NCBI RefSeq assembly: GCF_030406045.1
Contig: NZ_CP128988.1
Span: 1,027,438 to 1,091,437 of the forward strand
Direction: 5' to 3'
DNA from: Thiohalobacter sp. IOR34
GTDB lineage: Bacteria > Pseudomonadota > Gammaproteobacteria > Thiohalobacterales > Thiohalobacteraceae
DNA length: 64,000 nt
In this document: in pieces, positions 26,995 through 30,363 of the stretch
How the letters are laid out: each line of letters starts with the position of its first letter
Position numbering within the stretch: the stretch's first letter is position 1
Program-made: the position numbers and the translations under genes
Notes under the pieces: model-generated
Databases searched by the model: none
Seen by the model: only the letters and a program-made list of their open reading frames with translations
What the model was told of the DNA's origin: nothing

Positions 26995-27066
26995 CAATCG
27001 CGGCCTGGAGGCCGCTCCTACCACATTGACCGCCATACCCCGTAGGAGCGGCCTCCAGGCCGCGAT
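26995..27066. repeat. family C REP pair heading the tandem array
   Basis: Inverted REP pair; its right REP (27041-27066) is also the first unit of the 136-bp tandem array. Confidence 0.8.
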
Positions 27067-27612
27067 CAAGGCAAGGGGCACCACACACCCCGCGGCCTCG
27101 ACAGATCCCGGTCCACGCAGCGCGGCTCGGCTCATGGTGAATGCCGCTCCTGAGGCCCCCCGGCACCGCCATACCCCGTAGGAGCGGCCTCCAGGCCGCG
27201 ATCAAGGCAAGGGGCACCACACACCCCGCGGCCTCGACAGATCCCGGTCCACGCAGCGCGGCTCGGCTCATGGTGAATGCCGCTCCTGAGGCCCCCCGGC
27301 ACCGCCATACCCCGTAGGAGCGGCCTCCAGGCCGCGATCAAGGCAAGGGGTACCCCACACCCTGCGGCCTCGACAGATCCCGGTCCACGCAGCGCGGCTC
27401 GGCTCATGGTGAATGCCCCTCCTGAGGCCCCCCGGCACCGCCATACCCCGTAGGAGCGGCCTCCAGGCCGCGATCAAGGCAAGGGGCACCACACACCCCG
27501 CGGCCTCGACAGATCCCGGTCCAGGCAGCGCGGCTCGGCTCATGGTGAATGCCGCTCCTGCGGCCCTCCTGCACCGCCGGACCCCGTAGGAGCGGCCTCC
27601 AGGCCGCGATCG
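27041..27612. repeat. tandem array, 136-bp unit, about four copies, each with one family C REP
   Basis: CGTAGGAGCGGCCTCCAGGC begins at 27041, 27177, 27313, 27449 and 27585, an exact 136-bp period. Units differ by only a few bases (for example caccacacacc versus taccccacacc, and the last unit has cggccctcc). It has no coding content; minus-strand open frames across it are repeat translations. The region from 27613 to 27710 carries nothing recognised. Confidence 0.9.
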
Positions 27613-27714: not shown

Positions 27715-27745
27715 TTGACCTGGAGTCAGCTCCAGGTCGTATGCT
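27715..27745 (+). promoter_or_regulatory. MerR-family promoter/operator
   Basis: The -35 box TTGACC (27715-27720) and the -10 box TATGCT (27740-27745) are separated by 19 bases, the long spacer typical of MerR-activated promoters. Between and over them lies a perfect 9-bp inverted repeat, GACCTGGAG (27717-27725) and CTCCAGGTC (27730-27738), the expected operator. It drives the operon from 27839 and is presumably bound by the MerR regulator at 29881-30363. Confidence 0.88.
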
Positions 27746-27838
27746 GTCACAAAGTACAGGTTATCCAATGCCTTGGACCCGGGATCAGCCGCGGGGTGTC
27801 ATGGCTCTCGCGGTTCGGTTCTGTTGAAGGTGTCTTGC

Positions 27839-28678
27839 ATGAGGAAGAATATGACAGCATTGGGAAGATACCCGGGCCGGCTGATCGTGGTGGTGGGCTT
27901 GTTTGTCAATGGTTTCGCCTGGGCCCATGATCCCATCTTCGGCCTCGGCCCACATGTGTTGTACCAGGGTGGTATCGAGCTGGCGACCGGCATTCACCTG
28001 GAAAAGAGGGTCGAAGAACGGGCGGCGGAGCTGGGACTCGAGTTGGTCTACGGCATTACCGGCGACTGGGCCGCAGGCATCGAGTTGCCCTACGCCTGGA
28101 AAGACGAGGACTCGAAAAAATCTGCTGGGCCTGGTGATGTAACCCTGTTCACCAAGTACCGTTTCTGGCGTCGTGACTCCCTGGGCGTTCAGGAAAGCGC
28201 GGCGATGTTGCTCAAGCTCGTGACCGATACCGGTAATGAAAACGCCGCTCCCGCCTTGGGGACCGGTACCACCGATGCCCTGCTGGGCATTGCCTACGGA
28301 TATGAAAGCCGCCAGTGGTACCGCTGGGCGAGCCTGCGTTACCGTCGCAACGGTGAGAACGATGCGGGGTTGCGACGCGGTGACAAGGTGCTCTTCGATC
28401 TGGTGGGCGGTATCCGGCTCAGGCGCAGCGGCTATCTCGAGCCGGATACGGTATGGCTGCTTGAACTCAACGGTGAGTATGGACAGCGTGCTGAACTGAA
28501 CGGGGCCGGACTGACTGATACCGGTGGTATGGAATGGTTTCTGTCGCCGGGCGTCTTCTGGACCAAGCGAAACTTCGCGCTGAAGGCCGGTGTACAGATC
28601 CCGATTGCCAGCGATCTTAACGGCAATCAGGCACAGACGGATTATCGCGCCAAGCTCGTGCTCGAATGGCACCAGTGA
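27839..28678 (+). CDS. exported beta-barrel-like protein, probable outer-membrane component of metal operon
   Basis: 279 residues. The signal peptide RLIVVVGLFVNGFAWA is cleaved before HDPIFGLGPHVLY. The mature chain is rich in alternating amphipathic strands with aromatic ends (AAGIELPYAWKDE, TLFTKYRFWRRDS, KLVLEWHQ at the C-terminus), resembling small outer-membrane 'transporter/phenol-degradation MetA-like' barrels. The start may be 27839 or 27851, both with a Shine-Dalgarno-like sequence. It is the first gene after the MerR-type promoter. The function is inferred only from context. Confidence 0.65.
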   Translation: MRKNMTALGRYPGRLIVVVGLFVNGFAWAHDPIFGLGPHVLYQGGIELATGIHLEKRVEERAAELGLELVYGITGDWAAGIELPYAWKDEDSKKSAGPGDVTLFTKYRFWRRDSLGVQESAAMLLKLVTDTGNENAAPALGTGTTDALLGIAYGYESRQWYRWASLRYRRNGENDAGLRRGDKVLFDLVGGIRLRRSGYLEPDTVWLLELNGEYGQRAELNGAGLTDTGGMEWFLSPGVFWTKRNFALKAGVQIPIASDLNGNQAQTDYRAKLVLEWHQ

Positions 28679-28716
28679 TTTTCCGCCAACTGGCAACAAA
28701 CAAGATAGGTGATGAG

Positions 28717-29007
28717 ATGAAACGTTATTTGATTCTGCCACTGTTTGCACTCTGGAGCGTTGCGGTACTCGCAGCCGGAACACAATATGTCATGCGTGTG
28801 GATGGGCTGGCCTGCCCCTACTGCGCCTACGGCATCGAGAAAAAGCTGAAGCAGATCGACGGGGTGGAGCAGATCGACGTCGATCTGGAGAAAGGTCTGG
28901 TCACGGTGGACGTGGTCGAGGGCGTCAGGCTGACGGAAGCGCAGATGACCCGGCTCTTCAAGGACGCCGGATTTACCTACCGCGGCATGACGGAAAGACC
29001 GCATTGA
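28717..29007 (+). CDS. periplasmic heavy-metal-associated (HMA) domain protein, MerP-like
   Basis: 96 residues. A signal peptide (RYLILPLFALWSVAVLAAG) is followed by one HMA ferredoxin-like domain. The metal loop is DGLACPYCAYGIEKKL, that is CPYC in place of the TCxxC of MerP and CopZ; two cysteines remain. It is probably a periplasmic metal carrier handing ions to the membrane protein encoded next. The 3' end overlaps the possible TTG start of the next gene. Confidence 0.82.
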   Translation: MKRYLILPLFALWSVAVLAAGTQYVMRVDGLACPYCAYGIEKKLKQIDGVEQIDVDLEKGLVTVDVVEGVRLTEAQMTRLFKDAGFTYRGMTERPH

Positions 29008-29024
29008 GCGTGGAGGCGGCACAA

Positions 29025-29402
29025 GTGAAAGAGGGTGGTTTGACCTGGTTCACCTTGTTTGCCTCGGCCGGTACGCTGGTCTGCTGTGCCCTGCCCATCA
29101 TTCTGGTTACGCTGGGACTTGGCGCGGCTGTGGCCTCTCTCACCAGCGCCTTCCCATTGCTGATCATTCTCAGCCAGCACAAGATCTGGGTGTTCGCTTT
29201 CTCGGGCCTGATGCTCGGCATGTCCGCTTGGCTCATGTATCGCCCGGGACGCGCCTGCCCGATGGATCCGGCACTGGGGCGTGCGTGCACCAGGGCACAG
29301 GTCTGGAACAGGCGTATCTTCTGGACCTCGGTGGCCATCTGGAGCATCGGCTTCTTTGCCGCCTATCTTGCGCTGCCGCTGCGCATTTGGTGGGGATTCT
29401 AA
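29025..29402 (+). CDS. MerT-like inner-membrane metal transport protein
   Basis: About 125 residues with three membrane helices. Helix 1 carries the vicinal pair in GTLVCCALPIILVTLGLGA, like the CC of MerT. A second Cys pair (RACPMDPALGRACTRAQ) lies in the loop before helix 3. The GTG at 29025 follows GGAGG by eight bases and is preferred; a TTG at 29004 overlapping the preceding stop is possible. It would move the metal delivered by the HMA protein across the inner membrane. Confidence 0.7.
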   Translation: MKEGGLTWFTLFASAGTLVCCALPIILVTLGLGAAVASLTSAFPLLIILSQHKIWVFAFSGLMLGMSAWLMYRPGRACPMDPALGRACTRAQVWNRRIFWTSVAIWSIGFFAAYLALPLRIWWGF

Positions 29403-29487
29403 CCTTGGTCAGGCAGGACTGGCGGCAGCCCCCGGTCATGCAGAAAGCCAAGGAAGATAACCCCAACCTGCTTTGCCGGGTTAATAT

Positions 29488-29772
29488 ATGAGCATTGAGA
29501 TTGAAATATTCTCCTCTCCTGGTTGCAACAAATGCGGGCAGGCCAGGGAGGTGCTGCGCAAGCTCGCCGAGGAGGTTGGCAGCGGCCGAATCGCATGGCG
29601 GGAGGTCAATGTGCTCGATGAGTTGGACTACGCTGTAAGCCTTGGCGTGTTGTCCACGCCGGCCATCGCCATCGATGGAGAACTCGTCTTCACCGGCCTG
29701 CCCTCGATACGCAGGCTGCGCACGGAACTCGATCGGCGGCTCTCCGGTGGAGAGGGGACGGAGCGTGCATGA
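29488..29772 (+). CDS. thioredoxin/glutaredoxin-like protein
   Basis: 94 residues with a thioredoxin fold: IFSSPGCNKCGQAREVL carries the CNKC active site, and the cis-Pro lies in GVLSTPAIAIDGELVF. It resembles the small thioredoxin-like proteins in arsenic and mercury operons. It may keep metal-binding cysteines of the operon reduced. Confidence 0.83.
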   Translation: MSIEIEIFSSPGCNKCGQAREVLRKLAEEVGSGRIAWREVNVLDELDYAVSLGVLSTPAIAIDGELVFTGLPSIRRLRTELDRRLSGGEGTERA

Positions 29773-29880
29773 TCGCCGTATTTCCCACCACTGCCGCCGC
29801 ATATTCTGTGCTGTTGCCAGAAGGCCTTTGAACTGTTCGCTGGCATCAGCTTGAAATATCTACCGGACTGTATCTGCCCA

Positions 29881-30363
29881 ATGAGTATTTCCTCATCCTC
29901 GAATACTGAACGCATCCCTGAGTCGCCGAAAAGCGGGAAGGATAGCGGTAAAAGCCGCTATCGCATCGGTGATGTGGTCCATCTCACCGGTCTCAGCGCC
30001 GATACCCTGCGTTATTACGAGAAGATCAAATTGTTGCCACCGGTAAATCGCTCCGCATCCGGTATTCGCTTCTATGATGCGCGTGACCTGTCGCGGTTGC
30101 GTTTTATCCAACGTGCCAAGTCGATGAATTTTTCGTTGGACGAGATCGCGCGCTTGTTGGAAATGAGGGAGAATCCTCAGCATGCGCGTGATGATGTACG
30201 CGAGTTGACGCACAGGAAACTGAGAGAAATCGAGGTACACATGGAAGAACTCCAGACCTTGCGCAATGAGTTGACCCTCCTGGTCAATCTGTGTCGCGGT
30301 ACGAATGAAGGCTGCCCGATTATCGAAAACCTGGATGGCCGTCAAGGACGGAATAAAACATGA
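29881..30363 (+). CDS. MerR-family metal-responsive transcriptional regulator, CueR-like
   Basis: 160 residues. An unusual Ser/Lys-rich N-terminal tail of about 26 residues precedes the winged helix (YRIGDVVHLTGLSADTLRYY), followed by the dimerisation helix and the metal-binding loop NLCRGTNEGCPIIENLDG. That loop matches the CueR end (CPIIENL) and supplies the only two cysteines in the protein; the third Cys that MerR, ZntR and PbrR use ahead of the dimerisation helix is absent. This suggests a monovalent Cu/Ag/Au-type sensor, as an inference. It is the last gene of the operon it probably controls. Confidence 0.88.
   Translation: MSISSSSNTERIPESPKSGKDSGKSRYRIGDVVHLTGLSADTLRYYEKIKLLPPVNRSASGIRFYDARDLSRLRFIQRAKSMNFSLDEIARLLEMRENPQHARDDVRELTHRKLREIEVHMEELQTLRNELTLLVNLCRGTNEGCPIIENLDGRQGRNKT

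Follow-up and report, generated by a model that had tools for sequence, protein, structure and literature searches.

A mer-like metal operon with an outer-membrane barrel, a two-cysteine MerR-family regulator and its own operator

Transcriptional activation by DNA distortion is established for the MerR family, and three systems run by members of this family lie closest to the operon described here. The Gram-negative mer operon (MerR-MerT-MerP-MerA) combines an exported HMA protein, a membrane protein with two cysteine pairs and mercuric reductase, under a divergently encoded MerR with three metal cysteines. The other two are CueR of the cue system, with a two-cysteine metal loop, and ZntR of the ZntR/zntA system, with a third cysteine. 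The published signals differ: TCCGTAC-(4)-GTACGGA for Hg-type MerR, ACCTTCCC-(5)-TGGAAGGT for CueR, and ACTCTGGAGTCGACTCCAGAGT in a 20-bp spacer for ZntR (PMC1526738). Coordination of Hg(II) as HgS2 has been reported for CueR, also for a form without the CCHH tail, and this tail has been proposed to keep Hg(II) from activating CueR (PMC6899792). A further point of comparison, the ArsE/ArsG type, pairs a thioredoxin with a permease.

Here we compare with these systems an operon in a 64,000-nucleotide window (the whole stretch of DNA that was analysed), which spans positions 1027438-1091437 of the single 2.96-Mb contig (C1) of Thiohalobacter sp. IOR34. Like the mer operon, it encodes an exported HMA protein, a MerT-like protein with both cysteine pairs and a MerR-family regulator, and has a palindrome in a 19-bp promoter spacer. 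Unlike the mer operon, it has no merA and adds an outer-membrane barrel and a thioredoxin; its regulator has two metal cysteines rather than three and is encoded at the end of the operon rather than divergently; and its operator is of a CTGGAG type rather than TCCGTAC-N4-GTACGGA. The operon works like a mer transport module, but three features set it apart from a mer operon, and we rejected filing it as one: MerA, a three-cysteine MerR and a GTAC operator are all missing from it. Its layout is that of a mer-type uptake route that reaches out to the outer membrane, has a sensor and an operator to itself, and brings no reductase of its own.

Gene set and conservation of the operon

Five intact genes, all on the + strand, make up the operon: a barrel, an HMA protein, a MerT-like protein, a thioredoxin and a MerR-family regulator, as an earlier note on this DNA had listed them. 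The first (27839-28678) encodes an outer-membrane beta-barrel channel of the COG4313/PF13557 type with a signal peptide, scoring 36.5 bits against PF13557 (gathering score 22). Its AlphaFold model has 12 strands at modest confidence (pLDDT 66), and a Foldseek search with this model retrieved FapF and the COG4313 channel 4rl8 at E 1e-5 to 1e-4. A published study implicates COG4313 channels in the uptake of hydrophobic molecules (PMC4493636). The second gene (28717-29007) encodes an exported, MerP-like HMA protein (PF00403, 40.4 bits), which reaches 41.8 bits against the MerP model TIGR02052 (equivalog cut-off 92.55) and whose HMA domain scores slightly higher with a CopZ model. The earlier note had read its motif as CPYC in place of TCxxC. 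The residue ahead of the cysteines does differ, GLACPYC standing against GMTCAAC in MerP, but the motif is still CxxC, and this pair is invariant in the alignment of relatives (GLACP[YF]C).

The third gene (29025-29402) starts with a GTG preceded by GGAGG, with an alternative TTG at 29004. Its product scores 24.5 bits against PF02411 (E 2.9e-5), under the gathering cut-off of 32.9, which makes it a diverged relative of the MerT family. In an alignment with the genome's true MerT, it keeps all four MerT cysteines, namely the CC pair of the first helix (C20, C21) and the loop pair (C78, C88), and these are conserved across the alignment of relatives. The fourth gene (29488-29772) encodes a small cytoplasmic thioredoxin-like protein (CNKC) resembling MTH895/ArsE; no signal peptide is present in its sequence, and its CxxC is invariant in the alignment. 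It scores 48.4 bits with Thioredoxin_3 and falls under the cut-offs of TIGR00411 and TIGR00412. The regulator gene (29881-30363) closes the operon.

With the MerT-like protein as the query, we scanned about 85,000 species genomes and found 39 related loci, nearly all from Gammaproteobacteria and all metagenome-assembled. The order barrel, HMA protein, MerT-like protein is kept in most of these loci, the thioredoxin and the two-cysteine regulator are additionally present in many, and a metallo-hydrolase occurs in four. We sampled 370 genomes of the class and found close MerT-like genes (E up to 1e-35) in 37 of them, which points to a patchy distribution. The operon is therefore a conserved module common to many Gammaproteobacteria, not peculiar to one genome, and the earlier idea of a mixture of parts put together in this genome has to be given up. 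The possibility that an operon with this exact gene set and a known metal had already been described was also considered; many uncharacterised copies came to light and no described one, with no account of the five-gene set in the open-access literature that we searched. Carriage by a phage or plasmid was rejected: the operon region had no phage match, and its plasmid matches are all distant, under 60% identity.

Two side observations concern gene content in the relatives. A DsbD_TM/ArsG-like membrane protein is encoded in 13 of the 39 loci, usually behind the thioredoxin. The example in locus L027 (5688-6995) has 435 residues with the DsbD_TM/ArsG-like part in its C-terminal half, and counterparts occur in 12 other loci. 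Together with the thioredoxin it looks like an electron or metal relay, a pair that the operon in the window does not have. No DsbD-type partner was found in the window or in the rest of the genome, the latter by a search that had no positive control. The likeness to the ArsE/ArsG type extends to the MTH895/ArsE-like small thioredoxin and to the partner protein in 13 relatives; it ends with a thioredoxin below the family cut-offs and a window with no DsbD-type partner. Separately, a plasmid of Vibrio alginolyticus (NZ_CP119336.1; L063 8255-10125) carries a MerT-like domain inside a protein annotated as heavy metal-associated, and the same stretch holds a GDCCVxC protein, a divergent MerR-type regulator and adjoining copper resistance genes.

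Promoter, operator and regulator

The promoter (27715-27745, + strand) is of the MerR type, with a -35 element TTGACC (27715-27720), a 19-bp spacer and a -10 element TATGCT (27740-27745). The promoter holds a palindrome, ACCTGGAG-TCAG-CTCCAGGT (27718-27737), with perfect 8-base arms in an 8-4-8 arrangement. This promoter and its perfect inverted repeat, as the earlier note had reported them, can be read directly and are conserved in relatives. We searched the 39 loci (330 kb) for the pattern TTGACMTGGAGTNNNCTCCA, allowing up to 3 mismatches. It occurred upstream of the core genes in 29 loci, at 44 sites (a count that includes some second dyads, see below), and the reversed-pattern control gave 2 matches. 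The recurrence of the same site ahead of the core genes in 29 of 39 relatives argues that the operator is not a chance palindrome. The 2.96-Mb genome holds a single exact copy, at the five-gene operon; a wider regulon in this genome was rejected, as the pattern search gave only this one true site. The operator combines a ZntR-like core (CTGGAGTCNNCTCCAG) with a 19-bp spacer and matches none of the MerR, CueR and ZntR signals.

The regulator belongs to the MerR family (PF13411, PF09278), with a winged-helix domain, a long dimer helix and a long-spacer promoter, and its AlphaFold model has the MerR-family architecture, with CueR as the top PDB matches. It has exactly two cysteines, C138 and C145, as the earlier note had said. 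Both are invariant in an alignment of 17 related regulators (17/17), and the loop reads C-x6-C throughout, except in locus L015. The position of CueR Ser77, which is that of the third cysteine in MerR, is mostly arginine in the two-cysteine regulators, and none has a third metal cysteine; the CCHH tail of CueR is missing from all those of these loci. Scores fall below the equivalog cut-offs of CueR (TIGR02044, 116 bits against 147.4), MerR (TIGR02051, 91 against 150.85) and ZntR (TIGR02043, 103.4 against 167.95, with the third, zinc-ligand cysteine absent), and also below the cut-off of the CadR-PbrR model.

In a tree built with reference MerR-family proteins, the seventeen two-cysteine regulators from related loci form one clade (support 99/98). 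The nearest reference is ZntR, with weaker support (94/81) and a long branch, and CueR lies elsewhere. The sensor had been called CueR-like, and part of this holds: like CueR, the regulator has a two-cysteine metal loop, its nearest solved structures are those of CueR, and the promoter spacer is 19 bp. It differs from CueR in its C-x6-C rather than C-x7-C spacing, in the arginine at the position of Ser77, in belonging to another clade, and in the operon around it, which encodes neither a copper ATPase nor a multicopper oxidase. We rejected its identification as CueR by score, tree placement, tail and operator. With ZntR/zntA it shares the nearest, not strongly supported, place in the tree and a similar operator core; it departs from that system in its 19-bp rather than 20-bp spacer, its shorter palindrome, and the lack of a third cysteine and of a P-type ATPase. 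A self-contained, self-regulated operon for metal uptake or detoxification, neither standard mer nor standard cue, is what this comparison supports, in agreement with the earlier note. Given the role proposed for the CCHH tail in CueR, its absence suggests that a two-cysteine Hg(II) sensor would be chemically plausible.

Mercury genes and the candidate metal

None of the operon's five genes encodes a mercuric reductase, as had been noted earlier. That statement does not extend beyond the operon. A true MerA is encoded with merT and merP elsewhere in the genome (C1:1347020-1349202), about 0.29 Mb from the operon, and this merTPA cluster carries a textbook TCCGTAC-N4-GTACGG operator. A Hg-type MerR (C1:1004813-1005178) scores just below the cut-off. 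No CueR of the NCBI equivalog type was found in this genome, nor any match to an organomercury lyase, for which the control set likewise gave no match. As side observations, merTPA lies directly downstream of two gene pairs that appear, from their translations only, to be of the cas1/cas2 type, the gene pairs and merTPA together covering L065 4499-6867 and 7020-9202 (C1:1344498-1349201), and the Hg-type MerR adjoins an arsenite permease gene, ACR3 (C1:1004813-1007270), far from merTPA.

To relate the module to mercury genes across the class, we used the 370-genome sample, setting aside 14 genomes with distant MerT-like relatives only, and applied Fisher tests uncorrected for relatedness among genomes. 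Of the 37 genomes with the MerT-like gene, 23 have MerA, as do 51 of the 319 that lack the MerT-like gene (odds ratio 8.6, p 6e-9, kinship uncorrected). Under the same conditions ACR3 gave an odds ratio of 2.7 (p 0.007, kinship uncorrected), and CueR gave 0.5, which is not significant. In 8 of the 23 genomes having both, merA lies on the same contig, 1.6-17 kb away; in 14 of the 37 carriers no MerA was found. At 14 of the 39 loci, the sequence in view includes canonical mer genes or a Hg-type MerR with three cysteines. We scanned eight such neighbouring regulators: five score at or above the MerR equivalog cut-off, one of them barely, and the remaining three fall 3 to 13 bits short. Arsenic and RND genes also cluster near related loci, so that part of the merA link may reflect general clustering in metal islands.

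A Hg-type MerR stands divergent from the operon in five loci (L003, L005, L006, L012 and L020). Control of the operon by this neighbour is disfavoured, since the operon's own operator is present in these loci too. In L005, a perfect mer operator adjoins a CTGGAG-type operator within one gap between divergent operons, and L006 has a similar arrangement. The paired operators argue for two separate switches: the operon keeps its own operator, and the neighbour has the GTAC-type mer operator on its side of the gap.

We suggest that the operon serves the mer-like uptake of a thiophilic metal, with Hg(II) or a mercury compound as the likeliest candidate (probability roughly 0.55), and our best reading of it is a second, independently switched module for the uptake and handling of mercury or another soft metal. 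For mercury we count the retention of both MerT cysteine pairs and of the HMA CxxC, the merTPA of the same genome, the merA association and the private operator; the absence of the CCHH tail may be added, if that tail indeed blocks Hg(II) in CueR. Against mercury we count the two cysteines of the regulator, with arginine at the third site, as in monovalent-metal sensors, where the compared Hg(II)-type MerR proteins have three cysteines; the 14 of 37 module genomes without MerA, with the possible island clustering; and the nearest plasmid-borne relative, the Vibrio MerT-like/HMA protein, which lies beside copper resistance genes. In the route that we propose, the metal species would cross the outer membrane via the COG4313-type barrel and be picked up in the periplasm by the HMA protein on its CPYC pair. 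The MerT-like protein would then hand it on from the CC pair of the first membrane helix to C78 and C88 in the loop, and cytoplasmic metal would go to MerA, whose gene lies elsewhere in the genome; the CxxC thioredoxin may serve as thiol acceptor or reductant. Bound to the CTGGAG operator within the 19-bp spacer, the regulator would repress as long as it is metal-free, and metal bridging C138 and C145 would turn it into an activator. What we observed are the gene set, the conserved cysteines, the conserved private operator, the single clade of regulators and the merA association; we infer the metal, the direction of transport, the role of the thioredoxin and activation by DNA distortion from these parallels.

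A bolder version, which we consider possible though rather improbable, is a second class of mercury response: a two-cysteine sensor of Hg(II) or organomercury, a dedicated path from barrel to cytoplasm, no tie to merA, and two phased operators in relatives. Two cysteines would suffice for Hg(II) here because the blocking tail of CueR is absent.

Equally tentative is the main rival of the mercury reading, a switch for Cu(I), Ag(I) or Au(I), with a module that imports or redistributes copper or another coinage metal through the barrel, the HMA protein and the MerT-like protein. The metal loop without a third cysteine is that of CueR, which also supplies the best PDB matches; the edge of the CopZ model over the MerP model, the copper genes near the Vibrio relative and a genome with no equivalog CueR point the same way. 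Yet the module is not associated with CueR, its operator is unlike the CueR/HmrR signal, the regulator clade sits beside ZntR rather than CueR, and no multicopper oxidase or copper ATPase recurs in the cluster; moreover, an uptake operon that excess copper turned on would do harm unless the cell had a sink. Doubtful, and less probable again, is another soft metal or metalloid (Cd, Zn, Pb or arsenicals) or thiol or oxidative stress, the nearness of merA then reflecting resistance islands only. Such a reading would fit the ZntR-like operator core, the place of ZntR in the tree, the ACR3 association (odds ratio 2.7) and the MTH895/ArsE-type thioredoxin with its ArsG-like DsbD_TM partner in 13 relatives. 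It is countered by the third cysteine of the compared Zn and Cd/Pb sensors, which the regulator clade lacks, by a merA association much stronger than that of ACR3, and by the retained MerT cysteine pairs. The idea of a former mer operon that has decayed or gone inactive, which the missing merA and a degenerate second dyad in the window could be taken to suggest, is very improbable given five intact frames, conserved cysteines and operator, and a gene set kept in relatives.

If the metal is mercury, as we favour, the module would respond to it through a sensor chemistry of its own and add a dedicated outer-membrane step. Such a response would be common in Gammaproteobacteria and would escape surveys based on merA alone; many carriers come from marine and vent samples. 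If it is copper or silver, the operon would be a rare case of metal-induced import. With mercury as the metal, the regulators, a natural set of two-cysteine sensors without CCHH, would also bear directly on the proposed block of Hg(II) in CueR.

A second dyad and an upstream repeat

About 16 relatives carry a second copy of the palindrome in their promoters (GAACCTGGAG-N4-CTCCAGA..GTC), 59-75 bp downstream of the first and with no promoter elements around it. Examples are found in L002 (1421), L008 (3812), L012 (3709), L014 (3677), L017, L019 (387), L024, L027 (3685), L030 (3664) and L038, among others. The window has a weak operator-like dyad at 27774-27801 (+ strand), with 10 of 16 positions and 3 of 8 pairs matching; tentatively, it would be at most a decayed copy of the second operator. 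The spacings between dyads cluster near six and seven helical turns (p 0.03 by simulation). Such phasing would suit DNA looping and is only suggestive of a looping operator. We rejected an RNA leader structure as the source of the second dyad: RNA folding outdoes that of shuffled sequences by a small margin only (z -0.8 to -1.9), and the half-sites keep their exact letters, as would be expected of a DNA site more than of an RNA structure.

Immediately upstream of the operon promoter lies a GC-rich tandem array (27029-27611), with 4.3 copies of a 136-bp unit at 96% matches, whose units contain GTAGGAGCGGCCTCCAGGCCGCGATC.
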